Made by a program: the position numbers and the translations under genes. A stretch of DNA of 64,000 bases from Hufsiella ginkgonis (GTDB taxonomy: Bacteria; Bacteroidota; Bacteroidia; Sphingobacteriales; Sphingobacteriaceae). Each line of letters begins with the position of its first letter. Position 1 is the first letter of the stretch. The notes beneath the pieces are model-generated. The model worked only from the letters and a program-made list of their open reading frames with translations. It did no database searches and had not been told where the DNA came from. The DNA lies in assembly GCF_009834915.1 (NCBI RefSeq), contig NZ_WVHS01000004.1, positions 124,001 to 188,000 on the forward strand, read 5' to 3'. Of the stretch, positions 27,412-64,000 are shown in pieces.

Positions 27412-27438
27412 GGCACGATATTACCAAAAAATCTCTTA

Positions 27439-28983: not shown

Positions 28984-29002
28984 GGTTTACCTGTTTGTTC
29001 TG

Positions 29003-30169: not shown

Positions 30170-30215
30170 TAGTATGGTTGGTTAGCAGGATTATTGAAAT
30201 GGCTAAGGTAAGATT

Positions 30216-32219
30216 CTACTTCGATATCAGGTCTACGTTCGTTACTTTTTGAGGGAACCATACCGTCATTTCACCCTTCCCGCGATGAGCCCAGGCGTAG
30301 TAAGGGATGGCAGTAAACGGCTTGCTGCCGGTATCGATCTTCTCGCCCGACGCGTCTACCATTACCTTAGGAACACTTCCCCGCAGTACGGTCACACCGT
30401 TAAACAGGCCTTTATCGAACTCCGCTGAAAGCGATGCCGTTTTGGGCATCAGGAAGTTACTGGTCGAACCGTCGTTATCGGCCCACTCCGCACAGTAGAT
30501 GATCGGACCGCGCTGCAGGGCTACCTTACCCAGGTCTTCGCGGACGAGGGGATTGGCAACCACCGATCTCACTTCCATCGGCAGGTTCATTTCAATACGG
30601 TCGTTCTTTTTCCACGTTCTTTTTAGTACGGCGTACCCGTTCTCTACCGCGTAATTTACCGGCTCGCCATTCACCCTGATGGTTACCGGTGTATCGGCCG
30701 CCTGCGAAAAGGTGTACAGGTCTGATGGAACGGCTTTGTTTTGCGCCCATCCCGGGATCCGCAGTTTCATGGTAAACGTCAATGGCGACTTTGGCGACAG
30801 CGTGAACTGCAGCCTGCCGTCCCATGGATAATTATTCTGCTGGATAAGCTGTACAGGTTTGTTGTTAACCACGATATCGGCCGTGCCGGGAATGAACAGG
30901 TTGACGAAAACAGCATCGCCATTCTGGGCATATACATAACCCGGGATGGATGGAATGAGCCGCACGATATTGGTTGGGCAGCAGGAGCATTCAAACCACC
31001 CCGACCGGCCTCCCTCCATATCCTTGTGTGCGAAGATGTGTTTGATCTGCATTGCGTTGGTATAAAAGAACGATTTGCCATCCATTCCCACGCCGGAGAT
31101 CAGCCCGTTGTAAAGTGTTTTCTCCAGCACGTCGACGTATTTCGCCTCGCCATGTAATTGGAACATGCGCTGGTTCCACATCACGTTGCCAATTGCGGCG
31201 CAAGTTTCGTTGTAAGCGGTGCCATTGGGAAGGTCGTAATTATCGCCGAAGCGCTCGCCATCCGGCACCGCCCCGATGCCGCCCTGTACATATAACTTTT
31301 TGCCTACCATGTTGTCCCATATGTGGTCTATGGCATTCAGGTATTGCCGGTCGCCGGTAAGTGCCGCTACATCGGCCATTGCCGAATACAGGTACATGGC
31401 GCGCACGGCATGCCCTACCGCCTCATCCTGGTCTATAACAGGTTTGGCATTTTGCCAGTATTCCCCGTTCTGGAAAGGATTTTTGCTTCGTTTATTATAT
31501 TGCCGCTTGCCGCGCTCATCGAGGAAGAACTTTGCCAGGTCGAGGTATTCTTTTTTCGAAGTGATGCGGTACAATCTTACCAGTCCCATTTCCACCACTT
31601 CGTGCCCCGGCGCCACATGCATTTTATCCGGGCCAAAGGTATTTACCAGGAGGTCGGCATTTTTAAGGGCAATATTCAACAGGTTCCGCTTGCCGGTGGC
31701 GAGAAAATGTGCGCTTGCCGCTTCGAACAAATGCCCGGAATTATAAAGTTCGTGGCTGTTATCGTGCTCATTTTCCCAGCGCCTGGTACCCGACCAGGCA
31801 TGCGGATGTGCCGGATCGATGGTCCTGGCAGTATACAGGTACCCATCTGGTTCCTGTGCGCCGGCGATGATCACGATCATGGAATCCACATACGCATCGA
31901 GTTTCTTATCCGGGTGTACCGCCAGCGAAAAAGAGGCGCCTTCGATCGTTTTATAAATGTCGGTATCGTCAAACGGGAAGGTGGTACCAAACTTGCCGCT
32001 ATGTTGCGCGGCCATCTGGAAGTTCTTCACACGGCCGGTATTTTCGCAACGCTCAAACGATGCCGGGATGGTAACGGTACGGTTGGTTTCGATCCGGGGT
32101 GTCCAGAAATTATCCGAAAGCTTGACACTCGTAAAAGCCACCGGCCGGTAAGGGTAATCCTTTACCTGCGCCGTTGCGGCGGCGCCCGAAAACATCAGAA
32201 ATAACAATATGCGTTTCAT
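30216..32219 (-). CDS. Beta-L-arabinofuranosidase, GH127 (former DUF1680)
   Basis: A 667-residue exported enzyme for beta-linked L-arabinofuranose, as in hydroxyproline-rich glycoproteins of plant walls (extensin) and some arabinans. Signal peptide 1-17. The hallmark WFECSCCPTNIVRL near residue 410 holds the cysteine cluster that in the family coordinates zinc and contains the nucleophilic Cys; ETCAAIGNVMWNQRMFQLHGEAKY near 335 is also conserved. The N-terminal (alpha/alpha)6 barrel and C-terminal beta-sandwich fit the length. GH146 is an alternative within the same fold. Confidence 0.92.
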   Translation of the reverse strand: MKRILLFLMFSGAAATAQVKDYPYRPVAFTSVKLSDNFWTPRIETNRTVTIPASFERCENTGRVKNFQMAAQHSGKFGTTFPFDDTDIYKTIEGASFSLAVHPDKKLDAYVDSMIVIIAGAQEPDGYLYTARTIDPAHPHAWSGTRRWENEHDNSHELYNSGHLFEAASAHFLATGKRNLLNIALKNADLLVNTFGPDKMHVAPGHEVVEMGLVRLYRITSKKEYLDLAKFFLDERGKRQYNKRSKNPFQNGEYWQNAKPVIDQDEAVGHAVRAMYLYSAMADVAALTGDRQYLNAIDHIWDNMVGKKLYVQGGIGAVPDGERFGDNYDLPNGTAYNETCAAIGNVMWNQRMFQLHGEAKYVDVLEKTLYNGLISGVGMDGKSFFYTNAMQIKHIFAHKDMEGGRSGWFECSCCPTNIVRLIPSIPGYVYAQNGDAVFVNLFIPGTADIVVNNKPVQLIQQNNYPWDGRLQFTLSPKSPLTFTMKLRIPGWAQNKAVPSDLYTFSQAADTPVTIRVNGEPVNYAVENGYAVLKRTWKKNDRIEMNLPMEVRSVVANPLVREDLGKVALQRGPIIYCAEWADNDGSTSNFLMPKTASLSAEFDKGLFNGVTVLRGSVPKVMVDASGEKIDTGSKPFTAIPYYAWAHRGKGEMTVWFPQKVTNVDLISK

Positions 32220-32231
32220 AGAATGAATATA

Positions 32232-33287
32232 CTAGTTTGCCGTGCGTGGCTGTACCGCCGGCCAGCCTTTTTCCCAGGTAATTTTTTCGATGCGAAGCTT
32301 TGAGCGCCCATTGTCAGCGGCACTGTAGCCATGGAATACCAGGTAATCCGTTTTATCGAAACTGCTTACGCCGTTATGTCCTACCCCATACCAGTTTTTG
32401 TCGCCTTCGAGCACCAGGGTGCCACCGCCTTTGGCCATGGAAACGCCGGTTTTGTCCAGGTAAGGCCCGCTGATCTCTTTGGAACGGCCAACGATCATCT
32501 TGTAGGTGCTATTAATCCCTTTGCAGCAATAATCGATGGATGCGAAAAGGTAATAATACTTGCCCCTTTTAAAAATGAACGGCGCTTCGATCGCATTTCC
32601 GCCGGCATCAACCGGGTTATTGTCGACCGAAGGAAGGTTCTCTTTCACTCCCGGGTCCTTTTTGCGGCTGGCGATTGTCACGATGCTTTCTACCGGCTGG
32701 GCGAGGTGAAGGCGGTCGCCGGTAAGTTTTGCCAGCTGCAGCCCGTTCCAGAACGAGCCGAAAGCGAGGTACGGGCGTCCTTTTATATCAGTAACCAGGT
32801 TAGGGTCGATGGCATTCCAATTGGTTTTACCGGGGATCGACTGAACGACCTTGCCGTGATCCGTCCACGCGTAAGCCGGGTCGTCCGTATGAAGCGTTTT
32901 ATTGGTGGCTACCCCGATACACGAGGTGTTTTTGCCAAAAGCCGATGCCGAATAATAGAGATAATACAACCCGTTGTGGTACGAAATATCCGGCGCCCAC
33001 AAACTGTTGCCCCTAAATGTTTTGATAAAATCCCTTGCCCATTGCGGCGCTTCGGCAAACACCGGCTTCTCCTGTTTCCAGTTTATCATGTCCTTCGACG
33101 AAAACATCGAAACCCCGTTACCTGTACAGAAAATGTAAAACAGGCTATCCTGGCGGATCATCACCGGGTCATGCACCGAAATATTGGTACGCAGCACCCC
33201 ATACGCCGGCGCGGGTTGCTGTCCCGAGGCGGTTCCGGCGGTAAGCAGCACCGCTAAGCCCGCCAGGAAAATAAGCTTGATTCTCAT
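32232..33287 (-). CDS. Arabinan endo-1,5-alpha-L-arabinosidase, GH43
   Basis: A 351-residue exported five-bladed beta-propeller enzyme that cuts the alpha-1,5-linked arabinan backbone. Signal peptide 1-22. The three catalytic acids of clan GH-F are visible: Asp40 in VHDPVMI, Asp161 in WNAIDPNLV, Glu234 in AIEAPFIF. The LWAPDISYHNGLYYLYYSAS segment near 96 is the arabinanase version of the family. It lies 12 bases after GH51 and 12 before GH127 in the operon. An exo-acting or arabinofuranosidase member of GH43 remains possible. Confidence 0.93.
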   Translation of the reverse strand: MRIKLIFLAGLAVLLTAGTASGQQPAPAYGVLRTNISVHDPVMIRQDSLFYIFCTGNGVSMFSSKDMINWKQEKPVFAEAPQWARDFIKTFRGNSLWAPDISYHNGLYYLYYSASAFGKNTSCIGVATNKTLHTDDPAYAWTDHGKVVQSIPGKTNWNAIDPNLVTDIKGRPYLAFGSFWNGLQLAKLTGDRLHLAQPVESIVTIASRKKDPGVKENLPSVDNNPVDAGGNAIEAPFIFKRGKYYYLFASIDYCCKGINSTYKMIVGRSKEISGPYLDKTGVSMAKGGGTLVLEGDKNWYGVGHNGVSSFDKTDYLVFHGYSAADNGRSKLRIEKITWEKGWPAVQPRTAN

Positions 33288-33296
33288 AAACGTTAA

Positions 33297-35285
33297 TTAA
33301 AGCATTTTCACACGCACCACGCTGAATGAATAAGGACTGATAACAAGACCGATCTTCTTATTTTTCACCTCCGCCTGCTTATCCGAAGGGCTTACCGCCA
33401 AAGGGTTATCGAACGAGTTCAGCTGCTCCAGGTCCCTGCTGGCGATGGTGGTTACGGTGGCCTTGGGCGCCAATTTGCTAACCCCCTCGAACGCGAAACT
33501 GGCTTCCTGCGGCTTGTCAGAGCTGTTCACGATCTTAACTATGATCTCTTTGGTTTTTTTGTCGATCACCGCCGAGCCGTACAGCCCGTCCTTTCCGGCG
33601 ACCACTTCGTTATTTTGCAGCATGGCGATCACGTCCGTCCCCTTGTACAAAGAGAAGAGTTTTTGCACCTGGTAATCCGGTGTACCGTACGAGCGGAGGT
33701 TATCTACCCAAATCAGGTCGGGCGTCCATTGCCAACCTTCCGCATGTGCGAACAAGGGTGCATACGAAGCCATGGCCACCACATCGGCATTCCGCTCGAG
33801 GCCGGTCATAAAGGCGGCCTCAGAAAGTGCGGTCTGCCAGTTGTTCTTATTGTTCACGCTTACGGTTCTATCGCTTTGCGCAGCATACTCTCCGGCGAAA
33901 ATCTTCGAGCCGGTTCTCGGGTAATTATCGTAGCGCGACGCATTTTGCAGGAACCATTCCGGGCGGCGGTAATAATGCTCGTCAATAATATCGGCATTCA
34001 TTTTCCTAAGCTCACCGTTCAGGTAGTCGAACCGGTCGCCGTTAGGATCCGTGCCCGAGCTGTTTACCAGCTGCATGAAAGGGTATTTATCCTTGATCGC
34101 TTTTGTAAATATCTTAAGGCGTTCCACGTATTGCGGTCCCCAGTTCTCGTTGCCGATGCCCATCATCTTCAGGTTAAACGGCGCGGGGTGCCCCATATCG
34201 GCGCGGATCTTTCCCCATTTGGTTTTTACATCGCCGTTGGCGAATTCAACGAGATCGAGCGCATCCTGTACATACGGCTGAAGCTCGTCCATCGGCACTA
34301 CTTCGGCGGTATTAAACTGGCAGGCCATGCCGCAGTTGAGGATCGGCAGCGGTTCGGCGCCGATGTCTTCCGCGATCTGGAAATATTCAAAAAAACCCAA
34401 CCCGAACGACTGGAAATAATCCGGCGCCGGCTTATGCGCAAACTCCGTATTCCAGCGGTTAACTATCAGCTGGCGGTCTTCAACAGGCCCGACCGTTTTT
34501 TTCCATTGATAACGTGTCGCAAGGTCGTGCCCCTCTACGATACATCCTCCCGGGAAACGGATAAAACCAGGCTTCATATCTGCAAGCAGCTGAACCATAT
34601 CCGCACGCATACCACCGGGACGGTTCTTCCAGGTATCCTGCGGGAAAAGGGACACCATGTCCAGGTCGACGCCTCCGTTACCTTCAAACCAAATGCTCAG
34701 TTTAGCCTTCTGTTCCGTTGTGGTAGCTTCAAAGCTGATGCGTTGTTTCTTCCATGTCCCGGTGTTGCCGGGGAGGTTGAGGGTAGCGGAGCCGATCTTC
34801 TCACCTTTGGGATTTACCAGCTCGGCATGCAATTTTACGTCCGTTCCGGGAACACGGTACATTACCGAAAAATCATATTTCATCCCCTTTTTAATACCCA
34901 TGCCGCGGAACCCTTCATTGGTGATCCCCACGCTTCCCCGGGCAGCATTCACCAGCGAAATATGCAGGTACCGCGGGTTTGCGGCGTTAGATTCCCGCCG
35001 GTTTTGCACCACCACCGTGCCTTCCGGCACCTGACGCGGCACCACCGTCCAACCCATCAGCGGCTTATAGAACTCGAAAGAACGGTTTTTCACCAGCTCG
35101 GCATAGATGCCTCCGTCGGCGCCCATGTTTATATCTTCAAAAAAAACGCCCCACATGGTTGGCTTTACTTCTGCTTTCACCTGGTTGGCGTGAATAGTAA
35201 ATATATTCCGAACGGGTTGCCCGTTCGCGCCGGCTAAACTTAATGAAGCTGCAAAGACGGCGCTCAGAAATTTTCTCTTATACAT
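33297..35285 (-). CDS. Alpha-L-arabinofuranosidase, GH51 with carbohydrate-binding insert
   Basis: A 662-residue exported GH51 enzyme. Signal peptide 1-22; I use the ATG at 35285, not the TTG at 35312 that would add nine residues before it. Residues about 75-215 form a CBM4-like beta-sandwich inserted near the start, as in Bacteroidota arabinofuranosidases. Catalytic parts: FIRFPGGCIVEG near 241, acid/base Glu380 in MGIGNENWGPQ and probable nucleophile Glu466 in KIFAGEYAAQ. It is first in the hydrolase operon, with a promoter-like box just upstream and downstream of the SusCD terminator. Confidence 0.94.
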   Translation of the reverse strand: MYKRKFLSAVFAASLSLAGANGQPVRNIFTIHANQVKAEVKPTMWGVFFEDINMGADGGIYAELVKNRSFEFYKPLMGWTVVPRQVPEGTVVVQNRRESNAANPRYLHISLVNAARGSVGITNEGFRGMGIKKGMKYDFSVMYRVPGTDVKLHAELVNPKGEKIGSATLNLPGNTGTWKKQRISFEATTTEQKAKLSIWFEGNGGVDLDMVSLFPQDTWKNRPGGMRADMVQLLADMKPGFIRFPGGCIVEGHDLATRYQWKKTVGPVEDRQLIVNRWNTEFAHKPAPDYFQSFGLGFFEYFQIAEDIGAEPLPILNCGMACQFNTAEVVPMDELQPYVQDALDLVEFANGDVKTKWGKIRADMGHPAPFNLKMMGIGNENWGPQYVERLKIFTKAIKDKYPFMQLVNSSGTDPNGDRFDYLNGELRKMNADIIDEHYYRRPEWFLQNASRYDNYPRTGSKIFAGEYAAQSDRTVSVNNKNNWQTALSEAAFMTGLERNADVVAMASYAPLFAHAEGWQWTPDLIWVDNLRSYGTPDYQVQKLFSLYKGTDVIAMLQNNEVVAGKDGLYGSAVIDKKTKEIIVKIVNSSDKPQEASFAFEGVSKLAPKATVTTIASRDLEQLNSFDNPLAVSPSDKQAEVKNKKIGLVISPYSFSVVRVKML

Positions 35286-35366
35286 ATTACTTTTTAATTC
35301 CAGGCAAGCCAATACCCGGTGAATGATCGAAAAGAAAGATGAGCTAAATTAGGAAAGATTTATAAA

Positions 35367-35425: not shown

Positions 35426-36151
35426 TTAGGGGATGGTTATTTTCTGTACCTGGGTGAAGATACGTTCTGCGGTACCGGTGGTTTTCACCCCGATCCTCGC
35501 AAAAGCGTATTTCTTAAATTGAATGCCTTCGAGTGTTTGTTTTACGAAGGCTTGTCCTGCGGCCGTATAATTTGCCGGGTCGAGGCTGATTTTCACGGTA
35601 ACCGCCGATCCGACCGTTTTAGCAGCTTCCGTAGAAATGATCAGGTTAGTGTTATCTACAAATTCGGTGGCGCCGATCATCAATGTCGACAACTCCACCG
35701 TCTTGCCGGTAACGACCTGGTTCACAGTAAACGTAGCGGTAACAGATTTATCCGCGGCAGCATACGTAAAAGTAGCTGCCGTGATATTGAAGTAAGGTGT
35801 TACGGGGACGTCCACTACGGTATTTCCTTTTACTTTCACATCGATGGAGTCGGTAACGTCTGCCCATGGGCCATTACCTCTTAGGCGGACCAGTTTGTAA
35901 TCGCCATCGAACAGGGCAGCGGAATAGCTGCCGTCCTGTGCTACGTAAACGGGGATCTTGGTAAACAACTGGTAACCATGCTGCCATAATTCGAGCTGCA
36001 CGCCATTGGTTCGAACGGGAACCGGCGTACCGTTATAAGTTACCTTACCCGAAAGCATCGATTTTGGGGGTTCATAGTTATCTTTCGCACAGTTCGTCAA
36101 TAAAAAGACAGACAGGGCAAACAGGGTGTATAATGAGATCTTGAGTTTCAT
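35426..36151 (-). CDS. DUF3823 lipoprotein of the SusCD system
   Basis: A 241-residue lipoprotein with lipobox LLTNC (Cys21). The N-terminal block LSGKVTYNGTPVPVRTNGVQLELWQHG is a carboxypeptidase-regulatory-like beta sandwich; a second beta domain follows (about 125-240). DUF3823 proteins occur beside susD in Bacteroidota polysaccharide loci and are thought to be surface glycan-binding proteins. It starts 8 bases after susD and ends at the terminator, so it is the third gene of the SusCD unit. Confidence 0.85.
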   Translation of the reverse strand: MKLKISLYTLFALSVFLLTNCAKDNYEPPKSMLSGKVTYNGTPVPVRTNGVQLELWQHGYQLFTKIPVYVAQDGSYSAALFDGDYKLVRLRGNGPWADVTDSIDVKVKGNTVVDVPVTPYFNITAATFTYAAADKSVTATFTVNQVVTGKTVELSTLMIGATEFVDNTNLIISTEAAKTVGSAVTVKISLDPANYTAAGQAFVKQTLEGIQFKKYAFARIGVKTTGTAERIFTQVQKITIP

Positions 36152-36159
36152 AATAGTTA

Positions 36160-38040
36160 TTATTGGAATGGGTTACGTATTACTTTACCGCCGCTATTGT
36201 CAATTACAGATTGGTTTATGAACGTGTAATAATTAAACAGCTGGAAATTGCGCGGCGCTTTAAAACGGGGAGCGATCATTTTCACGAACACGTATTTGCC
36301 GTCTTTCGAAGCATCGCCGGGACGGATCACCCGGTACGGATAAAGCGCGTACAGCATTGCATCCGCATTATTCGGATTGCCGTTCCACACGATGTGGGCG
36401 ATCCGCCAGCGTTTCATGTCCCAAAGGCGGTGATCCTCAAAAGCCAGCTCCACTTTGCGTTCGTTCCTGATCTTGTCCATGGTAAGCGTAGTGGCATTCA
36501 GGCTGTTGGCCGGGAAGCCTGCACGCTCCCTGATCGCGTTTACATAAGTCAACGCGTCCGTAGTCTGGCCCAGCTCGAAAGCGGCTTCGCTTGCATTTAA
36601 GTACATTTCGCCGAGGCGGAACCATACCCACCAAACATCGGTACCAATACCCCTGGTGCTTGTGCCTGCGCCGGCGTCGAGGAATTTCCGGATATAAAAC
36701 CCGCTGTTAGAAACCTCCTGGATAGTGCGATGCGGGCCGGATGTTCCTGTTAATAATTTACCATCCGTGTAACTGGCACCGAGGGAGCTTCCTTCCACCG
36801 TACTATAAGTACTCGTAGCTGCGTTCCATACCAGCACACCAGCCTGCATTTGCACCGGCAGCCCTTTAAAACTGCTTCCCGGGTAAATAACCGTTCCATA
36901 TAAGCGGGCATCCTTGTTGGCGAAAATGTCCTGTGGATTATCGTAATAGATGTAGTCTGTATTGGCGGCATTACGGATCTTAAGGGCGCCATTGGAGCCG
37001 TCGAGATATTCGTAACTTTCTACCAGGTTAAGAGAGGGCGTGATTGCCGAAGATCCCAGGTTATCCTCCCGGATCCCTAACGGGATGTTGTTATAGGAGA
37101 ACCCGTGTTTCTTGCTTTTTGCACTCAGGTAATCTTTCACAAAAATGGCCTCTTTATTACCGATCTTCTTTACCACTGCTTCGTAAAAGTTTTCACCCAG
37201 GTTACCCGGGTTGCCTTTATAAAGCGTAAACAGGCCGCTGTTGATAATTTCTTTCGAAGCATCGAGAGACTTTTGGAAGTATTCATTCGCTCTTGCTAAT
37301 GGAATCCCCACCTCTCCCCCGGGGAGGGTGATCGGCGAAGCCAGCTGGGCATTGTATTTGGCAATAGAACCGGCATACAGCATTGCCCTGCTTTTTAAGG
37401 CCATTGCGGTGTATTTGGTGGCCTTGGTATTGCTTGCGGTTGAGCCGGTTACGTTACCCAGGTCATTTTTGATGGCATCGAGCTCGGAAGCGATGAAATC
37501 ATACACTTCCGCTTCTTTGGCACGGGCCGTTTGCAGGGGCGAAGGATCGCCGCTGTAATCATAGATCAACTGCTTGGTTACCAGCGGTACGCCTCCCATA
37601 CGTTTTACCATTTCGAAATAATCGAAGGCGCGGATAAAGCGCAGCTCGCCTTTAAATTGCGCCTTTTGCGCGGCAGAAAGTTTAGTACTGTACAGGTCGA
37701 TACTTTCGAGGGCCAGGTTGATGTCCCTGATCAGGCCATAATCCCATAAATACCAGCTGCCGCTGCCATAACTGGTGATGTTGTTCCTGCCGTCCTCACC
37801 GGTATATCCAGACCACATCGCATCGTCATAATTTGCCATGTTGGTCCAGTTATCCATGCTTTGCTCGCTCGGCAGCCGGTCGTAATAATTGGCCAATAAC
37901 CCAAGGATCTGTTTGCTGTCATTCCATACCTGTTCTTCAAGTATGATCGTTTTGGGAGTTCGTTCCAGGAAATCTTCTTTACAGGACGAGCCCGTCATGA
38001 TAAATATTCCCAGGATCAACCCTTTATATAGTGTTTTCAT
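36160..38040 (-). CDS. SusD/RagB family outer-membrane glycan-binding lipoprotein
   Basis: A 626-residue surface lipoprotein (lipobox GSSC, Cys20 from the ATG at 38040; the frame also opens with a TTG at 38052). Typical SusD layout: N-terminal SusD-like TPR region with QILGLLANYYDRLPSE and FIRAFDYFEMVKRMGGVPLV near 135, and the C-terminal RagB domain with YVNAIRERAG, ERKVELAFEDHRLWDMKRW near 550. It forms the lid over the SusC barrel. It lies 12 bases after susC; ligand is probably arabino-oligosaccharide by context. Confidence 0.95.
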   Translation of the reverse strand: MKTLYKGLILGIFIMTGSSCKEDFLERTPKTIILEEQVWNDSKQILGLLANYYDRLPSEQSMDNWTNMANYDDAMWSGYTGEDGRNNITSYGSGSWYLWDYGLIRDINLALESIDLYSTKLSAAQKAQFKGELRFIRAFDYFEMVKRMGGVPLVTKQLIYDYSGDPSPLQTARAKEAEVYDFIASELDAIKNDLGNVTGSTASNTKATKYTAMALKSRAMLYAGSIAKYNAQLASPITLPGGEVGIPLARANEYFQKSLDASKEIINSGLFTLYKGNPGNLGENFYEAVVKKIGNKEAIFVKDYLSAKSKKHGFSYNNIPLGIREDNLGSSAITPSLNLVESYEYLDGSNGALKIRNAANTDYIYYDNPQDIFANKDARLYGTVIYPGSSFKGLPVQMQAGVLVWNAATSTYSTVEGSSLGASYTDGKLLTGTSGPHRTIQEVSNSGFYIRKFLDAGAGTSTRGIGTDVWWVWFRLGEMYLNASEAAFELGQTTDALTYVNAIRERAGFPANSLNATTLTMDKIRNERKVELAFEDHRLWDMKRWRIAHIVWNGNPNNADAMLYALYPYRVIRPGDASKDGKYVFVKMIAPRFKAPRNFQLFNYYTFINQSVIDNSGGKVIRNPFQ

Positions 38041-38052
38041 ATTCAAAATCAA

Positions 38053-41000
38053 TTACAAGGTTAAGTTGAAACCAAAATTATACAGGCGTTGCTGCGGGTA
38101 GATCAGTCCGCCGGAAGAGCTGATCTCCGGGTCGATCTCGAAATCCTTCACGGAGTCGAAAGAGAACAGGTTAGATCCGTTCGCATAAACGCGAAGTTTG
38201 GACACACCCACCCTTTTCATCAGCTTTTGCGGAAAAGTATAACCCACCTCGAGATTCCTCAGCCTGAAATAGCTTACATTGGTTAGCCAGAACTGGTTTT
38301 GGCGGAAGTTTGCATGGCCTGTTTCATTTCTCCGCAGCGCCGGGTAAGTTCCGGGGATCCAGGCGCTGTTCAGGTCGTAGGGGTTTTCGCGGTGCCAGCG
38401 GTCCGTGAACATATATTTTGGCGAGTTACCATTATTCTGGAAAGGGAATTTCAATTCCACATCCCTGGAGAAGCTTTGCATGGTCGCTCCCGAGAAATCA
38501 GCAGCCAGGTTTATTCCTTTGAAGCCTACACTCAGGCTCGATCCATAGCTCATATACGGTGTGGCACCTGTGGCATAGCCGATGGGGCGCTGGTCTTCCG
38601 TGGTGATAATTCCATCGCCATTAGAATCCTTGTACATAAAATCGCCTGGGAGCTGGGTGCGGTTACCCTGCCCGTCGTTATTAACTTTATAGTTATCGAT
38701 TTCCTGTTGCGACTGGAAACGGCCCACAATCTCATAACCGAAGTTGATGCCGGTCCAGCGATCTATAGCAGAGTTCCGGTAATAATCCCAGGAGTTGCCC
38801 CGGCGGGGTTTGTATTGCGCAATATTCCGGCTCCTGCCGATCGTTCCGTTGGCGGAGATCGAGAAGTCTATCTTTCCCAACCGTTTATCAAAGCTTAGTA
38901 AACCTTCCACGCCCCGGGTCTCATCAGAATTCAGGTTCTCGTTCGGCAGGGTGTAACCTGCTTCGCTCGGCAGCAACACGTCGTACTTAGAAGCCGGCAA
39001 GCCCGATCTTTTACGTTTAAAAATGTCGAACTGGCCGGTAAGGCCGTTCAGCATACCAAAATCGAGCCCGAGATTCAGCAGCTTGTTGTTAACCCACGAC
39101 AGATTGGTAATAGGTAAGCCCCTGGGTCTCAAACCGATCACGTAGTTTCCGTCGAGCACCGCGCTTCCGCTGTTAAAATTATACCCGGCGAGGTAGTCAA
39201 AACGGTTAATTCCCGATTCGCTGCCGGTCTCGCCATACGATGCCCTGATCTTTAAATCGTTAACAACGCCACCGATCTTATTCTTGATAAACGGTTCTTC
39301 GGAAAGCCTCCAGCCCACAGACATCCCCGGGAAGAAACCCCAGCGCTTATCGGCCGCATAGAGGTATGAACCGTCATACCGGCCTAACACTTCCAGCAGG
39401 TATTTTTGCTTGTAGCTGTAGTTGATCCTGCCGGTGTACCCAGCCCTCGCTTCTACTTCCCATGCATCTGCCAGAAAATCCTGGTTGGCGAACTGCATGA
39501 TCGGGATATAGTTATTTGGGGGAACCGAGTGAATAGCCAGGTAATCGTTTTCCTGCTCAGACCGTTCGTAAGCCGCTACCGCGGAAAGCGAGTGAAAACC
39601 GAACGATTTTTGGTAGTTCAACTGAAACTGGGCAAAATTGGAAAATATGTTACGTTTGTGTTTTTCTCTCCAGGGATTCTGGTTTCCGCTGGCAAGCGTA
39701 TAAGTATCTGTTGCTGCGTTATAATTATAGGCGTCGTAGGTAAATTCAAACCCGTCGAAATCCTCGTTGGTATAATTATGGGAATAGGTTCCCTTCGCCA
39801 CTAAACCAAAGGGGAAATCATAAGATACATTCAGGTTTACGTTTACGTTCCGGTAGATCTCGTCGATATATCCGGTTACGTCGTTTTTGTAAGTAGCCGG
39901 GTTAACATTCACACTGTGGCCCTGGTTAATGTAGGCCGGGTTATCATTGGCGTACATCGGCTCCGTTGGCCACATGCTCGAAATACTCAAAAGCGGGTTA
40001 AAGTAATCGTCGAGTCCGGGTACGCCCACGTTATGCGCTTTTTGCAACCGGCCGCTGATCTGGGTGCCGATCTTCAATCCTTTGGCAAGACTGGCATCCA
40101 GGTTCGCCTGAAGGTTAGTCCTTCCATAAGTAAAATCCTTGATCAGCGCGTCCTGGTTAATATGGCTTACAGAGAAGTAATAATTGGACCGTTGCGATCC
40201 TCCGGATGCGTTTGCACTCAGGTAGTACTGGGGTACGTTCGGACGTGTCACCGCGTCGAAATAATCGTAGCTTTTATAGCCTTTTTCAGTTCCTGCCTCC
40301 CATTTCGCCAATACATCGGGGGTGAAAAGCAACGAAGGATTCCCCGCAGCAAGCGATTTGTTCTGTTCGGCTTCCAATTGGGCCCTGACGAACTGGCCCG
40401 CATTGGCAGGGTGAGGGTACCGGGTAAAGTTTTGCATCCCGTAATAACTGGTAACATTGATCATCGATGTTTCCCGTTTACCTTTCTTGGTGGTTACCAA
40501 TACCACCCCGTTCGATGCCCGTAATCCGTAAACCGCGGCCGAAGCATCTTTCAGGATCGTAACGCTTTCGATATCTTCAAGCCCAAGGTTATTAAACACG
40601 TTAGCGCCGGAGTTATTGCTGTTAAAGCCAAACGCCGACTGGCTGTCGTTCGTACTGTAAGGCACGCCGTCGATCACGTACAACGGAGTACCCAGGTTCC
40701 TGATCTGCAGGTTGGTGCCGTTACCGGGTCGCGAGTCCTGCGAGCGGGAAGTGATCCCGGGGATTTTCCCCACCAGCGCGTTGGTAGCCGCGACCGCCGG
40801 CGAACGCACAATATCAACCGAATTGATCTGGCTGATTGCACCGGTAACGCTGGCTTTCTGCTGTGTGCCGTATCCTACCACTACTACTTCTTCCAGCGCC
40901 TTAGTGTCGTTTTCAAGCACGACGTTTACGGTACGATCGGCAGGGATGGCAATCTCCTTCGTAAGATAACCAAGGGCCGAAAACACCAGCGTACCGCCGG

Positions 41001-41220
41001 AAGAAGGCACCGTCAGCACAAATGCCCCATCTGCGTTGGTACTGGCACCAACCGTGGTACCCTTTAGCTTGATAGTAGTGCCGATCAAAGGCTCGCCTTT
41101 AGAATCTTTTACGGTCCCCTTTACCTGCACACTTTGCGCAACGGCCAGGTGCAGCCCGGAGACCAATAAAAACAGGGCAACGACGCTACCCCTCAGCAGT
41201 TTTTGTCTGATTCTTTTCAT
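38053..41220 (-). CDS. SusC/RagA family TonB-linked outer-membrane transporter
   Basis: A 1055-residue TonB-dependent transporter. Signal peptide 1-28; carboxypeptidase-regulatory-like domain (about 32-108) with VKGTVKDSKGEPLIGTTI; TonB-box region EEVVVVGYGTQQK near 111; plug domain (about 120-235) with LYVIDGVPYS and ILKDASAAVYGLRASNGVVLVTTKKG; then the 22-strand barrel ending in an aromatic strand FNFGFNLTL. Imports glycan fragments across the outer membrane with SusD. Its upstream region carries a promoter, two copies of the candidate AraR site and a leader hairpin. Confidence 0.96.
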   Translation of the reverse strand: MKRIRQKLLRGSVVALFLLVSGLHLAVAQSVQVKGTVKDSKGEPLIGTTIKLKGTTVGASTNADGAFVLTVPSSGGTLVFSALGYLTKEIAIPADRTVNVVLENDTKALEEVVVVGYGTQQKASVTGAISQINSVDIVRSPAVAATNALVGKIPGITSRSQDSRPGNGTNLQIRNLGTPLYVIDGVPYSTNDSQSAFGFNSNNSGANVFNNLGLEDIESVTILKDASAAVYGLRASNGVVLVTTKKGKRETSMINVTSYYGMQNFTRYPHPANAGQFVRAQLEAEQNKSLAAGNPSLLFTPDVLAKWEAGTEKGYKSYDYFDAVTRPNVPQYYLSANASGGSQRSNYYFSVSHINQDALIKDFTYGRTNLQANLDASLAKGLKIGTQISGRLQKAHNVGVPGLDDYFNPLLSISSMWPTEPMYANDNPAYINQGHSVNVNPATYKNDVTGYIDEIYRNVNVNLNVSYDFPFGLVAKGTYSHNYTNEDFDGFEFTYDAYNYNAATDTYTLASGNQNPWREKHKRNIFSNFAQFQLNYQKSFGFHSLSAVAAYERSEQENDYLAIHSVPPNNYIPIMQFANQDFLADAWEVEARAGYTGRINYSYKQKYLLEVLGRYDGSYLYAADKRWGFFPGMSVGWRLSEEPFIKNKIGGVVNDLKIRASYGETGSESGINRFDYLAGYNFNSGSAVLDGNYVIGLRPRGLPITNLSWVNNKLLNLGLDFGMLNGLTGQFDIFKRKRSGLPASKYDVLLPSEAGYTLPNENLNSDETRGVEGLLSFDKRLGKIDFSISANGTIGRSRNIAQYKPRRGNSWDYYRNSAIDRWTGINFGYEIVGRFQSQQEIDNYKVNNDGQGNRTQLPGDFMYKDSNGDGIITTEDQRPIGYATGATPYMSYGSSLSVGFKGINLAADFSGATMQSFSRDVELKFPFQNNGNSPKYMFTDRWHRENPYDLNSAWIPGTYPALRRNETGHANFRQNQFWLTNVSYFRLRNLEVGYTFPQKLMKRVGVSKLRVYANGSNLFSFDSVKDFEIDPEISSSGGLIYPQQRLYNFGFNLTL

Positions 41221-41285: not shown

Positions 41286-41317
41286 CTAAGGTAATGATAG
41301 AATAATTAACTGTCAAT
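41286..41317 (-). promoter_or_regulatory. Promoter of the arabinan susC operon
   Basis: Leftward: ATTG (41314-41317), 20-bp spacer, TACCTTAG (41286-41293), each one base off the Bacteroidota consensus. The -33 box lies within the first copy of the candidate AraR site. Confidence 0.45.
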
Positions 41318-41351
41318 ATAACACTTTAAAAAAACTGTCAACATTACACTT
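41311..41351. promoter_or_regulatory. Two copies of candidate AraR operator between susC and the 41450 gene
   Basis: TGTCAATATAACACTT (41311-41326) and TGTCAACATTACACTT (41336-41351) are 14 of 16 identical and offset by 25 bp. The motif TGT-N-A...T-N-ACA is a pseudo-palindrome. The third good copy precedes araB at 42955. Copy one covers the susC -33 box, which fits repression; the copies may also act on the divergent 41450 gene. Confidence 0.55.
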
Positions 41352-41449
41352 TAAAAATCAACTGATTGATTATCAAGCAAATAATTTTTATATGTGATTT
41401 TTTAAAATAAAAACCAGTACTTACCTTGCATTAACTAATCAATCGTACA

Positions 41450-42109
41450 ATGAAAAATACCACCCGGACTATCCGCGTGTTTATCGCATTGCTCCTGTTT
41501 ACCGGCAACCTGCCGGTACAAGCACAAGTCGTAACGCTTTCACATTACCTGTTCCCCGGCTTTGTTAAGGGTACCGTTAAATTCAAAAACGCTACACAGC
41601 AAGAGGCACAGCTCAATTACAATTCCCTCACACAGGAAATGCTCTTCCTGGATAAAGACACCCCGCTGGCGCTGGACCAGACAGAGAACATCGACACCAT
41701 ATATATACAGGGCCGGAAATTTATTCCCACGGAGAAAGCCTTTTTCGAAGTCGCTACCACAGGCGCCACCCCCTTACTCATCCGTCATAAATGTACGGTG
41801 ATCCCGCCCGGCAAACCGGCAGGCTATGGGTCCACTTCCCAGGCTTCCGGTATTACTACGCTTTCCGGCATCTCCTCCAACCTGTTTTACAAACTCCAGC
41901 TTCCTGCCGACTATAAACTGATCCCCGAAACCGAGTTCCTGCTAAAAAAGGGCAAAGACTATGTGAAGATCACGGGCGTCAAACAGTTTATCACCGCCTT
42001 TCCGGCGAAGTCGGACGCGATTAAGGCTTATGTTAAACAAAATGACCCCAACTTTAAGGACCCTGCCGATCTCGTGAAGCTGGTCGATTTTTGCAACAGG
42101 GCCTCCTGA
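41450..42109 (+). CDS. Exported protein of unknown function, divergent from susC
   Basis: A 219-residue protein with a signal peptide (residues 1-26, cleavage near VQA-Q). The mature part begins with a beta-rich stretch FKNATQQEAQLNYNSLTQEMLFLDK, which resembles periplasmic or surface beta-sandwich proteins of Bacteroidota, and ends in a lysine-rich helical region with FPAKSDAIKAYVKQ. No cysteine lipobox and no catalytic motif are evident. It shares its regulatory region with susC and leads into araR, so it should belong to the arabinose regulon. I do not recognise a family name. Confidence 0.75.
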   Translation: MKNTTRTIRVFIALLLFTGNLPVQAQVVTLSHYLFPGFVKGTVKFKNATQQEAQLNYNSLTQEMLFLDKDTPLALDQTENIDTIYIQGRKFIPTEKAFFEVATTGATPLLIRHKCTVIPPGKPAGYGSTSQASGITTLSGISSNLFYKLQLPADYKLIPETEFLLKKGKDYVKITGVKQFITAFPAKSDAIKAYVKQNDPNFKDPADLVKLVDFCNRAS

Positions 42110-42131
42110 GAATAATCATTAATTTAGCGCT

Positions 42132-42152
42132 CCGGCACTTTGCCGGGGTTTT
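42132..42152 (+). terminator. Terminator after the exported protein gene
   Basis: CCGGC (42132-42136) pairs with GCCGG (42142-42146), followed by GGTTTTG. A weak stem with a short T-tract, 23 bases after the stop. Confidence 0.5.
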
Positions 42153-42215
42153 GTCATCCGTGCACGCAACAGGGCAGGATGCAACTTGAAATTATTATTA
42201 ATATTTTCGCTCCAA

Positions 42216-42923
42216 ATGATCAGGTATTCAGGGCAAACACGCATTCTGGTAGCAGTGGACTGCATAATCTTCGGGTTCGACGGCGAACACCTGAAGCTGT
42301 TACTTATACACCGCGGGTTTGAGCCTGAAAAGGAACAATGGAGCCTCATGGGGGGCTTTATCGGTACCGAAGAAGACCTGGACCAGGCCGCAAACCGCAT
42401 CCTTAAAGAGCTTACCGGCCTCGAAGGCGTTTATCTCGAGCAGTTCCATGCCATGGGCGATCCCAAACGCGACCCCATCGAGCGCACCGTTTGCGTGGCC
42501 TACTTCGCATTGATCGACATCCATAAATACGAAAAACAGATCAGCGACCAATACCGGGCCGAATGGTTCCTGCTAAAAGATATGCCCAGCCTCATATTCG
42601 ATCACCAAAAAATAGTCGAGCTCGCTAAAAAGAAACTACGGTACAAAGCAGCCCTGCATCCAATCCTTTTCGAGCTCCTGCCACCCAAATTTACACTGCC
42701 CCAATTGCAGATGCTTTATGAGGCGATCTACGAAACGGAATTCGACAAACGCAACTTCAGCAGGAAGATCCTCTCTACCGGCCTGCTCGTTAAACAACCC
42801 GATAAAGACAAACGCAGTTCTAAAAAGGGCGCCTTTTACTATAGCCTGCACGAACTGGAGTATAACGACAAGTTCGATGCCTTCCTCAACTTCATACCCA
42901 ATCCGCACGCGCTGATCGCGTGA
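42216..42923 (+). CDS. araR: AraR-type transcriptional regulator (Nudix domain plus winged helix)
   Basis: A 235-residue regulator of the Nudix-related (NrtR/AraR) family known to control L-arabinose genes in Bacteroidota. The N-terminal Nudix fold (about 1-150) has the box with G47 and E53, but where an active enzyme has REUxEE the sequence is RILKEL (61-66), so hydrolase residues are lost. The C-terminal part (about 155-225) is the winged helix with KFTLPQLQMLYEAIYETEFDKRNFSRKI. The ATG at 42216 replaces an earlier TTG. It sits directly before araBDA and probably senses L-arabinose. Confidence 0.92.
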   Translation: MIRYSGQTRILVAVDCIIFGFDGEHLKLLLIHRGFEPEKEQWSLMGGFIGTEEDLDQAANRILKELTGLEGVYLEQFHAMGDPKRDPIERTVCVAYFALIDIHKYEKQISDQYRAEWFLLKDMPSLIFDHQKIVELAKKKLRYKAALHPILFELLPPKFTLPQLQMLYEAIYETEFDKRNFSRKILSTGLLVKQPDKDKRSSKKGAFYYSLHELEYNDKFDAFLNFIPNPHALIA

Positions 42924-42954: not shown

Positions 42955-42970
42955 AAGTGTTACTTAGACA
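42955..42970 (+). promoter_or_regulatory. Candidate AraR operator before araB
   Basis: AAGTGTTACTTAGACA is the complement form of TGTCTAAGTAACACTT and matches the two susC-promoter copies at 12 of 16 positions shared by all three. It is only 12 bases before the araB ATG, so a bound regulator would block initiation or early elongation. Confidence 0.5.
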
Positions 42971-42982
42971 CGAAATAAACTG

Positions 42983-44656
42983 ATGACTACTGAAAGCTTT
43001 GTAATCGGCGTAGACTATGGCACGGATTCCGTCCGTTCGGTGCTTGTTAACACGCAATCCGGCCAGGAAATCGCCTCTGCTATATATTATTATCCACGTT
43101 GGAAAAAAGGATTGTATTGTGATCCCTCTCGGAACCAATTCAGGCAGCACCCGCTAGACTACGTCGAGGGTCTTGAATTTACCATTAAATCATGCCTCGA
43201 ACAGGCCGGGCCGGCAGTAGCCGCGCAGGTAAAAGCGATCTCCGTAGACACCACCGGATCTACTCCCGTGGCCGTCGATCACAGCGGTATACCCCTGGCC
43301 CTGCTTCCCGGGTTTGAACACAACCCCAATGCCATGTTTGTGCTTTGGAAGGACCATACTTCCGTAAATGAAGCCGCAGAGATCAACGAGCACGCCACCC
43401 GGTTCCCGGTAAATTACCTGCAGTTCGTGGGCGGTATCTACTCTTCAGAGTGGTTCTGGTCAAAACTGCTCCATATTCTCCGCACAGACGAGGACGTCAG
43501 GAACGCCTGTTACTCCTGGGTAGAACATTGCGACTGGATCCCGTTCCTGCTGGCAGGCGGCAAACGGTCGGCAGATATCCGCAGGGGCGTATGTTCCGCG
43601 GGGCATAAATCGCTCTGGGCGGCAGAATTTGGAGGGCTCCCGCCCGAAGAATTTTTCAGCTCGCTCGATCCGTTGCTGGCCGGCTATACGTCAAGGCTGT
43701 TTACCGAAACTTACACGGCCGACCAGGCGGCAGGCACCCTGGGCGAAGAATGGGCCGCCCGCCTGGGACTTTCCACGGCGGTGATCATCGGCATCGGCGC
43801 ATTCGATGCGCACATGGGCGCCGTGGGCGGCCAGATAGAGCCCTACTTCCTGAGTAAGGTAATGGGAACGTCTACCTGCGACATGTTGGTAGCTCCCGCA
43901 ACGGAAGTGAACGATACCCTCGTAAAAGGGATCTGCGGCCAGGTGCCCGGATCCATCATTCCCGGCATGATCGGCATGGAGGCGGGCCAGTCTGCCTTCG
44001 GCGATGCCTATGCCTGGTTCAGGAACCTGCTCATGTGGCCGCTGAAGCACCTCGTTACCGAAAGCAGCGTGCTTACCGCTGAACTGGCACAGGTACTCGT
44101 TAACGACGTCGAAGCGCGGATCATTCCCGAGCTGAGCAGGCTCGCAGAACAGCTTCCCGTAGAGGAATATGGAGAGCTGGCGATCGACTGGATGAACGGA
44201 CGGCGCACGCCGGATGCCAACCAGGCGCTAAAAGGTGCGTTTTTAGGCTTAGGCCTGGGCAGCGATGCCGTCAAATTATTCCGCGCACTGGCGGAAGCGA
44301 CCTGTTTCGGCGCCCGCAAGATCGTAGACCGCTTCATCGAACAGGGCATCCCCGTAAAAGGGCTGATCGGCCTGGGCGGCGTAGCCCGGAAGTCGCCGTA
44401 CATTATGCAGATGATGGCCGATGTGATGAATATGCCCATTAAGATCCACCGTTCAGAACAAACCTGCGCCATCGGTGCCGCCATGTTCGCCGCGACGGCA
44501 GCCGGTATCTATCCCCGTGTAGAAGACGCCATGGAAGCCATGGGCCAGGGTTTCGATGCCATTTATGAGCCGGACGCTGAAAAGGCGGCCATTTACGCAA
44601 AACGCTACGAACAATATACCACCGCAGGAAATCTCGTTGAAACAATTACCCGATGA
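42983..44656 (+). CDS. araB: Ribulokinase
   Basis: Phosphorylates L-ribulose to L-ribulose 5-phosphate. A 557-residue FGGY kinase: GVDYGTDSVRSVLV at residues 8-21 binds phosphate, SVDTTGSTPVAVD near 88, the HCDWIPFLLAG substrate segment near 190, and C-terminal GLGGVARKSPYIMQMMADV near 458. Its length and the araB-type motifs separate it from xylulokinases. Its stop overlaps the araD start (ATGA, 4 bases). First enzyme gene after araR in the rightward ara operon. Confidence 0.96.
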   Translation: MTTESFVIGVDYGTDSVRSVLVNTQSGQEIASAIYYYPRWKKGLYCDPSRNQFRQHPLDYVEGLEFTIKSCLEQAGPAVAAQVKAISVDTTGSTPVAVDHSGIPLALLPGFEHNPNAMFVLWKDHTSVNEAAEINEHATRFPVNYLQFVGGIYSSEWFWSKLLHILRTDEDVRNACYSWVEHCDWIPFLLAGGKRSADIRRGVCSAGHKSLWAAEFGGLPPEEFFSSLDPLLAGYTSRLFTETYTADQAAGTLGEEWAARLGLSTAVIIGIGAFDAHMGAVGGQIEPYFLSKVMGTSTCDMLVAPATEVNDTLVKGICGQVPGSIIPGMIGMEAGQSAFGDAYAWFRNLLMWPLKHLVTESSVLTAELAQVLVNDVEARIIPELSRLAEQLPVEEYGELAIDWMNGRRTPDANQALKGAFLGLGLGSDAVKLFRALAEATCFGARKIVDRFIEQGIPVKGLIGLGGVARKSPYIMQMMADVMNMPIKIHRSEQTCAIGAAMFAATAAGIYPRVEDAMEAMGQGFDAIYEPDAEKAAIYAKRYEQYTTAGNLVETITR

Positions 44657-45351
44657 GTATCTATCAGCATATCAAACAATCGGCCTACGACGCCAACATG
44701 GAGCTCCCGAAGCTCGGTCTCGTATTATTTACTTTTGGAAACGTAAGCGCCGCCGACCGCTCACTGGGTGTATTCGCCATTAAGCCGAGCGGCGTGCCCT
44801 ACGAAAACCTGACACCGGACATGATGGTGATCGTAGACTTCGACGGAAAAACCGTACAGGGCGATCTACGCCCCTCTTCCGACACCAAAACACACGCCGT
44901 GCTCTACAAACACTGGGAACAAATTAACGGCATCGTACACACGCATTCCACCTATGCTACGGCATGGGCGCAGGCGCAACGCGATATCCCGATATTTGGC
45001 ACCACCCACGCAGATCATAACACCGTGGATATTCCCTGTGCTCCGCCGATGAGCGATGCGATGATCGTGGGTGACTATGAATACCAGACCGGTTTCCAGA
45101 TCATGGACCACTTTACAGAAAAAGGCCTGGACTACCAGGAAGTTGAAATGGTACTGGTAGGAAACCATGCCCCGTTTACCTGGGGGAAAACTCCCGAAAA
45201 AGCCGTTTACAACAGCGCGGTGCTCGAAACGGTAGCCAAAATGGCGCTGCTCACAGAGCAGGTAAGAAAAGATACGCCGCGCTTACAAGACTCATTGATT
45301 AAAAAACACTACGAACGGAAACACGGCCCCGACTCGTACTACGGCCAGTAG
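44653..45351 (+). CDS. araD: L-ribulose-5-phosphate 4-epimerase
   Basis: Converts L-ribulose 5-phosphate to D-xylulose 5-phosphate for the pentose phosphate pathway. The 232-residue class II aldolase-like enzyme shows the zinc ligands in IVHTHSTYATAWA (two His near 97) and the later His in VLVGNHAPFTWG near 172; TTHADH near 117 is also conserved. Length is standard. It overlaps araB by 4 bases. The araA gene follows after 157 bases of non-coding repeats. Confidence 0.96.
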   Translation: MSIYQHIKQSAYDANMELPKLGLVLFTFGNVSAADRSLGVFAIKPSGVPYENLTPDMMVIVDFDGKTVQGDLRPSSDTKTHAVLYKHWEQINGIVHTHSTYATAWAQAQRDIPIFGTTHADHNTVDIPCAPPMSDAMIVGDYEYQTGFQIMDHFTEKGLDYQEVEMVLVGNHAPFTWGKTPEKAVYNSAVLETVAKMALLTEQVRKDTPRLQDSLIKKHYERKHGPDSYYGQ

Positions 45352-45508: not shown

Positions 45509-47002
45509 ATGATAGATCTCAAAAGTTTCGAAGTCTGGTTCATCACCGGTAGCCAGGACTTATATGGTGAGGAAACACTCAAACAGGTAGCCGAACACTC
45601 ACGGGAAATTGCCCTGGGGCTCGATGCGGCATCACAGATCCCGGTGAGGGTGGTATTTAAGCCGACGGTTAAATCGACGGAAGAAATTTACCAGGTGATC
45701 CAGCAAGCCAACGTAGCCGAAAACTGTATCGGCCTGATTGCGTGGATGCACACTTTCTCTCCCGCGAAAATGTGGATCCGCGGCCTGGGCATTTTAAAGA
45801 AGCCCCTGCTGCACCTGCATACCCAGTATAACCGCGACCTGCCATGGAGCACCATCGACATGGACTTCATGAACCTCACGCAGAGCGCCCATGGCGACCG
45901 GGAGTTCGGCTTTATGGTATCGCGCATGCGCCTGGAACGGAAGGTGGTGGTTGGGCATTGGCAAGACCCTGAAGCGCTCGCACAGATTGGCGGCTGGACC
46001 CGCGTAGCCGCCGGCTGGTACGACTGGCAGGGCGCTAAATTCGCCCGCTTTGGCGATAATATGCGTTACGTAGCCGTTACCGACGGCGATAAGGTGGAAG
46101 CCGAGCTGAAATTCGGTTACTCCGTAAATTCCTACGGCATCGGCGACCTCGTGAAACTGGTAGGCGAAGTAAGCGACCAGTCGCTCGACCACCTCATCAC
46201 CGAATATGAAGACCGTTACACCATGTCGGCCGATCTCCGCAAAGGCGGCGACCGCCATACGTCCGTGAGAGAGGCGGCCCGGATCGAGATCGGCCTGCGT
46301 GCCTTCTTACAGCAAGGCGGTTTTAAAGGGTTCACCGACACTTTCGAAGACCTCCACGGCATGCTCCAGTTGCCCGGTATCGCGGCACAGCGCTTAATGA
46401 ACGAAGGGTACGGCTTCGCCGGAGAGGGCGACTGGAAAACCGCAGCCCTTGTTCGCGCCTGTAAAGTGATGGGTACAGGCCTCCCGGGAGGCAACGCCTT
46501 TATGGAAGACTACACCTATCACTTCGACCCCGCCAATCAGCTGGTGCTAGGTTCGCATATGCTGGAGATCGACGAGTCCATCGCCAGGGGCAGGGCGTCG
46601 CTGGAGGTACACCCGCTCGGCATCGGCGGCAAAAGCGACCCGGCGCGCCTCGTATTTAACGTAGCAGGCGGGCCGGCCATCAACGCCTCTATCGTCGATA
46701 TGGGCAACCGCTTCCGGATGCTCGTAAACGAGGTGGAAGCCATCGAACCGCTCCACGATCTTCCTAAATTACCCGTAGCCCGCGTGCTCTGGAAACCGTT
46801 ACCGGATATGAAAACCGGCTGCGCCGCCTGGATCTACGCCGGTGGAGCGCATCACACCGCTTACAGCCAAAACCTGGACGCCGGGCAGATGGCGGATTTC
46901 GCGGCTATCGCCGGGATCGAGTGCGTGAGGATCGATAAGGACACGAAGCTCGACCAGCTGAGGAACGAGCTCAGGTGGAGTGAAGCGTACTGGAGTAAAT
47001 AA
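45509..47002 (+). CDS. araA: L-arabinose isomerase
   Basis: Interconverts L-arabinose and L-ribulose with a divalent metal. The 497-residue protein starts [26 protein letters not shown], the AraA signature, and has the metal/catalytic region [18 protein letters not shown] near 305, [10 protein letters not shown] and HMLEIDES near 335, and GGAHHTAYS near 448. Length is standard. Third enzyme gene of the araBDA operon, with a strong terminator shortly after the stop. The isomerase pathway is complete in the window. Confidence 0.97.
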
Positions 47003-54927: not shown

Positions 54928-54947
54928 TTGATTAATATTATCTGAAA

Positions 54948-57977: not shown

Positions 57978-58012
57978 GTGTTTGTCATTATAATTTTCTC
58001 TTGATTGAATAG

Positions 58013-58028
58013 GTGCCTTTCTCGGCAC
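58013..58028 (-). ncRNA. Hairpin in the leader of the second susC
   Basis: GTGCC (58013-58017) pairs with GGCAC (58024-58028) around a 6-base loop, 36 bases before the ATG. Short stem; its interest is the similar position to the hairpin before the first susC. Confidence 0.35.
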
Positions 58029-63861: not shown

Positions 63862-64000
63862 TCTAAATAAACAACTAAAATAGCGATGACCGATCCCCCG
63901 GAAAGGGTGATTTTTCCAATAAAGAACCATTCCTCCACAAATCCGGTATTTCGAACATTTCCAGTTCAAATTACGTAAAATATCTTAAATTAAACGCTGC

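Follow-up and report, generated by a model that had tools for sequence, protein, structure and literature searches.

The open reading frame at 41450..42109 (+) of the window (the whole 64-kb stretch of DNA that was analysed) encodes an exported protein, here called Q219, whose gene separates the two divergent halves of a full locus for arabinan and arabinose; the protein is uncharacterised, and the data do not establish it as a new component of arabinan capture. The reading that is favoured, tentatively, is that of a soluble periplasmic accessory of various glycan loci which was recruited between AraR operators and araR. Q219 would then be a member of an uncharacterised Bacteroidota family of soluble, Sec-exported and probably periplasmic proteins, acting as an accessory for exported glycan-handling enzymes and transporters, most likely as a protein-binding adaptor or stabiliser, in a role that would not be tied to one sugar. 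It would probably be induced by arabinose along with susC and the arabinan enzymes, AraR control of Q219 being what the operators suggest. A soluble, protein-binding accessory in the periplasm is favoured by the scatter of relatives over sugar systems, by export without an anchor and by the smallness of the beta domain; the adaptor step is one that we infer from a predicted fold with weak structural matches. L-numbers are labels of related or compared loci.

The reading frame runs from ATG to TGA (219 codons) and begins with a Sec signal peptide, recognised by eye, at residues 1–25 (41450..41524, +). The best relative (L084) was 54% identical over residues 26–219, and the nucleotide differences between the two genes were distributed over the three codon positions as 82/64/134, thus mostly at the third (219 codons compared); the conserved relative and the concentration of differences at third positions mark Q219 as a real coding gene, and the secreted protein of 219 residues proposed by the sequence-only reading was confirmed. 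Cysteine is found at residues 115 and 215 only, so there is no lipobox, as that reading had stated; tryptophan is absent. Lipobox-like strings occurred in two of the 63 aligned family proteins. Pfam and NCBIfam searches with Q219 gave no match (0 each), with no kinase, receiver or DNA-binding domain in either and no known carbohydrate-binding domain in Pfam, and a PDB sequence search gave no convincing match (best E 0.084 with the protein, 0.22 with the profile); the description of a protein with no recognised domain therefore stands. The same genome carries one clear paralogue (35% identical), which is located outside any ara locus and adjoins a Gfo/Idh-like gene (named by reading), and elsewhere weaker matches to Q219, mostly C-terminal.

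Sixty related loci were obtained from a scan of genome contigs, 59 of them from Bacteroidota and one (L084) filed as Williamsia. The 62 aligned relatives were 23–49% identical; in the 63-protein alignment (Q219 included) residues Y57, N58, E63 and M64 were invariant and F38, G48, F66, F91 and E100 nearly invariant, and the conserved core can be written as F...G.V...LNYN..T.EM.F. No Pfam or NCBIfam model was matched by more than two of the 63 members and none was matched convincingly; Pfam, NCBIfam or PDB matches confined to one or two members, with E values of 0.001–0.1, were treated as chance. The distribution is patchy: matches to Q219 (E ≤ 1e-3) were present in 28 of 399 family-level genomes and profile matches (E ≤ 1e-5) in at least 33 of 395 phylum-level genomes, the window's genome being included in both counts; the second count is a lower bound with at most seven candidates scored per genome, and many of its matches cover the C-terminal part only. 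By comparison, 379 of the 399 family-level genomes had an AraR-like match (E ≤ 1e-40), other NrtR-type regulators included. In the tree, in which many forks are open, Q219 pairs with L084 (support 96/78), and this pair stands next to L117/L119 and to a Sphingobacteriaceae group holding the paralogue (92/83). L134 (match in two pieces) and L143 (short match) were left out of alignment A2 and of the counts over 58 loci, L130 was used in the tree and left out of A2 (no ATG found), and the weak relatives L046 and L048 are absent from the clustering. Tandem copies of the family gene were seen at six loci (L085, L102, L112, L120, L131 and L044).

An AlphaFold2 model was calculated on the family alignment (mean pLDDT 88.2, pTM 0.78; residues ~121–150 weaker) and consists of an N-terminal helix, a beta domain at residues ~34–130, a further hairpin and three short C-terminal helices; the core is predicted to fold as a small, bent, barrel-like beta domain. 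Both the full model and the isolated N-terminal domain were used for structure searches. The best Foldseek matches were weak (E 0.065 for the whole protein, to another fold, and 0.29 for the domain, to Hfq), as was the best VIA-align match (Z 4.1, rmsd 4.8 Å over 82 residues). The entries matched, all of them weakly, were FMN split barrel, Hfq/Sm, YaeO and YgdI-like ones, and the Q219 fold is not claimed as new; profile and structure searches for a known unrelated family, a match to which the sequence-only reading had named as evidence against it, thus yielded nothing convincing. Conservation in the Q219 family gave no arguable catalytic or sugar-binding site.

The locus around Q219 is a complete one for arabinan and arabinose. 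On the minus strand lie a SusC-type TonB-dependent transporter (38053..41220, −) and SusD (36160..38052, −), both by domain match, followed downstream of susD by a DUF3823 protein (35426..36151, −; lipobox LLTNC by eye), which is placed like a SusE/F-type surface glycan-binding lipoprotein, and by arabinan-type enzymes (26212..35312, −), namely two alpha-L-arabinofuranosidases, GH43, GH127, an aldose epimerase and a GH88-like enzyme. On the plus strand Q219 is followed by the NrtR/Nudix-type regulator AraR (42219..42923, +; Pfam NrtR_WHD, NUDIX and AraR_C; start at ATG 42219 or alternatively TTG 42186) and, by domain match, an FGGY sugar kinase (araB, 42983..44656, +), a class II aldolase-type epimerase (araD, 44653..45351, +) and L-arabinose isomerase (araA, 45509..47002, +). 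Q219 is thus divergent from susC and upstream of araR, as described from the sequence alone. Further along the window, a second SusC/SusD-like pair (53452–58028), an AraC-type regulator-like gene (59353–60222) and a large two-component-type sensor (60889–63969) were named by reading.

The two operator copies of the sequence-only reading correspond to a 25-bp direct repeat between the susC and Q219 starts, whose units (41308..41332 and 41333..41357, no strand assigned; 92% alike) were taken as two tandem AraR-type sites, ~92 bp from the Q219 start; they resemble the BtAraR EMSA oligonucleotides in the excerpt used of PMC4666351. In the 64 kb the palindromic motif AAGTGT-N7-ACACTT was found twice with ≤1 mismatch, both times as the tandem sites, against 0.125 expected (40 simulated sequences), three times at 2 mismatches against 1.8 expected (a small excess) and 18 times at 3 mismatches against 18.2 expected (no excess), the chance test being partly circular because the motif was partly read off the tandem sites. 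Site 1 overlies the −33 element of a putative susC promoter (ATTG, N20, TACCTTAG; 41286..41317, −), and site 2 ends 7 bp before the −33 element of a putative Q219 promoter (ATTG, N20, TATATGTG; 41365..41396, +); each promoter is a match to the Bacteroides consensus alone, as quoted in an excerpt of PMC7366714, and carries no chance estimate. Such a geometry fits regulation of susC no less well than regulation of Q219. The gap between Q219 and araR contains a terminator-like stem-loop (42129..42149, +; 9 pairs, short T tail; folding energy of 42101–42170, −15.4 kcal/mol), terminator-like matches there numbering 4 against 2.6 expected, close to what chance would give; with this stem-loop 3′ of Q219, a common transcript of Q219 and araR is not established. 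Between araR and araB a further AraR-like site with 2 mismatches was noted (42955..42973, no strand assigned), which in the window alone is not beyond chance; it differs by one base from a Hufsiella site in the same position (L221:6470-6488), and the ara locus of L084's genome has a similar site between araR and araB (L230:7696-7714). Its conservation suggests that in this group AraR may regulate araB through a site of its own.

The expectation that orthologues would always lie beside arabinan susC/araR failed: tblastn with the window's ara genes (E ≤ 1e-8) detected araR, araA or araD at none of the 60 related loci within flanks of up to 10 kb and in none of 18 further regions of other family-level genomes (six being the same places), the same search giving a single kinase edge fragment, at L117. 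Conversely, no family member was present at 29 other araR loci (the best 29 among the 379 genomes with a match). At 14 of these 29, an AraR-like site with ≤2 mismatches was located ≤200 bp upstream (~0.2 expected at the window's rate), with no family member between the site and the araR match. Judged from these sequences, the placement of Q219 is unusual among the ara loci examined.

The relatives had varied neighbours. At 13 or more of 58 loci the closest gene to one side, transcribed in the same direction, was of a type found in glycan loci, this number being a lower bound as some neighbours had no individual scan: sulfatase (L092), GH3 (L093), GH127/GtaA (L094), alpha-L-fucosidase (L108, L113, L121 and L126), heparinase/GH28 (L115), DUF3823/GtaA (L117 and L119), GH43 (L118), alpha-L-AF (L125) and SusD (L142). 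The distal genes of the same loci included fewer glycan families among the 25 listed, in what is a rough comparison. The window's SusD or DUF3823 was matched within the flanks at four of the 58 loci, L142 being added by Pfam, and the L085 relative adjoins a TonB-type receptor. In two Mucilaginibacter-type genomes (L130, which equals L040, and L041) a xylose operon (kinase, isomerase and transporter, by reading) precedes the relative; at L116 a neighbouring gene belongs to the class II aldolase family and was unmatched by the window's araD, and the L084 relative adjoins a thioredoxin gene of DsbA type as well as a gene that was read as cytochrome-c-like. A convergent DUF6155 gene was present at 11 of 58 loci, mostly near YebC-like and DEAD-box-like genes, and LemA was a neighbour at three; with no glycan gene adjacent at many related loci such as these, an accessory role might apply to part of the family only. 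The DUF6155 loci are L087, L088, L089, L090, L091, L095, L099, L100, L107, L109 and L111; seven of the 11 are filed as Prolixibacteraceae, and all 11 share what is a conserved non-sugar setting.

At least one relative, on a branch adjoining that of Q219, belongs to an arabinose locus. Just beyond the flank of L117, on the same contig, araD (50% identical) and araB (59%) were found, and the whole series lies on one strand in the order araD, araB, aldose epimerase, sigma-factor-like and anti-sigma-like genes (both by reading), susC, susD, DUF3823, relative, GtaA, GH2-like gene, GH127 and GH43; an AraR-like site with 1 mismatch precedes the araD match by ~60 bp. SusCD, DUF3823, relative, GtaA and GH127 follow each other in L119 as in L117; the L119 contig begins slightly before susC, and in that genome araB lies, together with an AraR-like gene, on a different contig, where no family member was seen. 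The GH127 proteins of L117 and L119 belong to a different subgroup from the window's (23% identical). In Hufsiella (L094) the relative has GH127 on one side and GtaA on the other, a GH43 is close by, and a SusD 65% identical to the window's is 7 kb away; the araR locus there, ~266 kb off, has no family gene. In L118, L125 and L134 the relative adjoins or is close to genes for GH43, alpha-L-AF and GH127, so that in all, relatives have GH127, GH43 or alpha-L-arabinofuranosidase in their vicinity in L094, L117, L118, L119, L125 and L134. Relatives lie mostly outside arabinose loci, which is largely the outcome that the sequence-only reading had named as refuting it; L117 and the arabinofuranosidase-type clusters speak for that reading.

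The strength of this link was estimated from AraB; a search that covered the genomes behind 59 of the 60 loci (L102 left out) matched it in 9 of 11 genomes at E ≤ 1e-20 and in 30 of 48 at E ≤ 1e-60 (L101 doubtful, 36%). Among the 39 genomes with an AraB match, araB was ≤20 kb from the family gene in one (L117); ~0.2 such cases were expected by chance, so that the single case is no proof. Many contigs are short and further cases may be hidden; in L094, L116 and L134 araB is on the same contig, about 265–295 kb from the family gene. Counted after the pattern had been seen, with distances by eye and L102 left out, GH127 was ≤10 kb from the family gene in 2 of 20 other genomes (0.24 expected, P 0.024, post hoc) and GH43 in 4 of 20 among the matches listed (0.69 expected, P 0.006, post hoc; P 0.03 with a syntenic pair taken once), which amounts to a mild enrichment of the family gene near GH127 and GH43. 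In the tree the copies from these clusters fall on more than one branch, so that repeated recruitment and loss are both possible. The closest susD orthologues (63–70% identity) in 11 other genomes had a family gene nearby in Hufsiella only; over 12–14 kb on the susC side it was absent at the other ten loci, two of them with araR. Joint movement of Q219 with the window's SusCD, both being within 10 kb in Hufsiella, was considered and is unproven, 10 of the 11 susD loci being without the gene over that stretch and the Hufsiella copy not grouping with Q219 in the tree, where many forks are open.

These data were weighed against several other readings. It is somewhat unlikely, although the strongest of the rivals, that Q219 is without a working arabinose link and was brought beside the operators by rearrangement, with an unrelated periplasmic role of its own: the empty 29 araR loci, the ten of 11 closest-susD loci without the gene over the stretch examined, the terminator-like stem before araR and the same-genome paralogue outside any ara locus all speak for such an origin, to which the distance of ~92 bp from the tandem AraR sites, the recurrence of relatives in SusCD, GH127 and GH43 clusters and the arabinose locus at L117 are opposed. 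If it applied, the case would illustrate how readily an unrelated exported gene can end up beside a sugar operator and mimic a pathway part. Arabinan or arabino-oligosaccharide capture by a specific periplasmic component, the part of the earlier proposal that survives as possible, is rated as unlikely. It draws on the position of Q219 inside a complete arabinan locus, on L117 as a second arabinose locus with a relative and an AraR-like site ahead of araD, and on the other relatives near GH127, GH43 or alpha-L-AF with their post hoc excess; set against these are the single araB case in 39 genomes, the relatives beside GH29, GH28 or sulfatase genes or beside no sugar gene, the other GH127 subgroup of L117 and L119, and a protein without Trp, known carbohydrate-binding domain or lipobox. 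The sensing that had been proposed alongside capture is excluded from this reading and found no support, no signalling domain being present. An arabinan-specific role is accordingly not favoured, since relatives are mostly outside arabinose loci, and is kept alive by L117 and the arabinofuranosidase-type clusters.

A helper for the periplasmic folding or assembly of outer-membrane SusC-type transporters and surface lipoproteins is a further reading, judged improbable: a relative comes immediately after SusD in L142 and immediately after DUF3823 in L117 and L119, and the L085 relative and Q219 have a TonB-type receptor and susC, respectively, as neighbours, but only four of 58 loci match the window's SusD or DUF3823 in their flanks (plus L142 by Pfam), and ten of the 11 other SusD-orthologue loci lack the gene on the stretch examined. 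The soluble periplasmic accessory of various glycan loci accommodates the scatter of relatives, with the membership of the L117 relative in an arabinose locus as evidence against a purely general role. If it is correct, the SusCD model would gain a part that acts after capture at the outer membrane and before uptake across the inner membrane, and a name would be given to a family that ranges from Sphingobacteriaceae to Bacteroidales and yet matches no Pfam or NCBIfam model here. Its most far-reaching version, quite unlikely, would make the family a class of periplasmic, soluble accessories, as yet undescribed, for Bacteroidota pentose- and deoxysugar-glycan loci (contexts of arabinose, arabinofuranosidase/GH127, fucosidase and xylose); in the space from the outer membrane to the inner-membrane transporter they would handle either oligosaccharides or enzymes, and they would be plugged into whatever regulon is local, here AraR.

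Among known systems, SusE/F-like proteins are surface glycan-binding lipoproteins of SusCD loci. The Q219 family shares with them export and the SusCD locus, relatives following DUF3823 or SusD in L117, L119 and L142; Q219 differs in having no lipobox and no Pfam match and in being divergent from susC rather than downstream of susD. Hfq/Sm-like and other small beta barrels have a strand arrangement somewhat like that predicted for residues ~34–100 (VIA-align Z ~3–4, weak), whereas Q219 has no sequence match to the Hfq/Sm-like barrels, is larger, has a helical tail and is exported. The closest parallel to the locus is the BtAraR regulon of Bacteroides thetaiotaomicron which, in the excerpt of PMC4666351, likewise has an NrtR-type AraR with tandem semipalindromic sites that governs ara catabolism as well as GH51/GH43 enzymes and SusCD. 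That excerpt names AraM, AraP, Abn, Abf and SusCD, and its figure legend adds hypothetical genes, so a counterpart of Q219 is possible there.

Two observations were made in passing. Proteins of a ~693-aa family adjoin the relative in three loci (L118:10627-12714, L086:1489-3564 and L134:7861-9945; Chitinophagaceae), with GH43 or GH127 genes near in two of the three; those of L118 and L086 had no Pfam match. The assembly of L084 and L230 is filed under Williamsia (Actinomycetota), yet its contigs carry Bacteroidota-type genes, and its ara locus encodes AraR and AraB 71% and 73% identical to the window's; the label is probably a naming or binning error.
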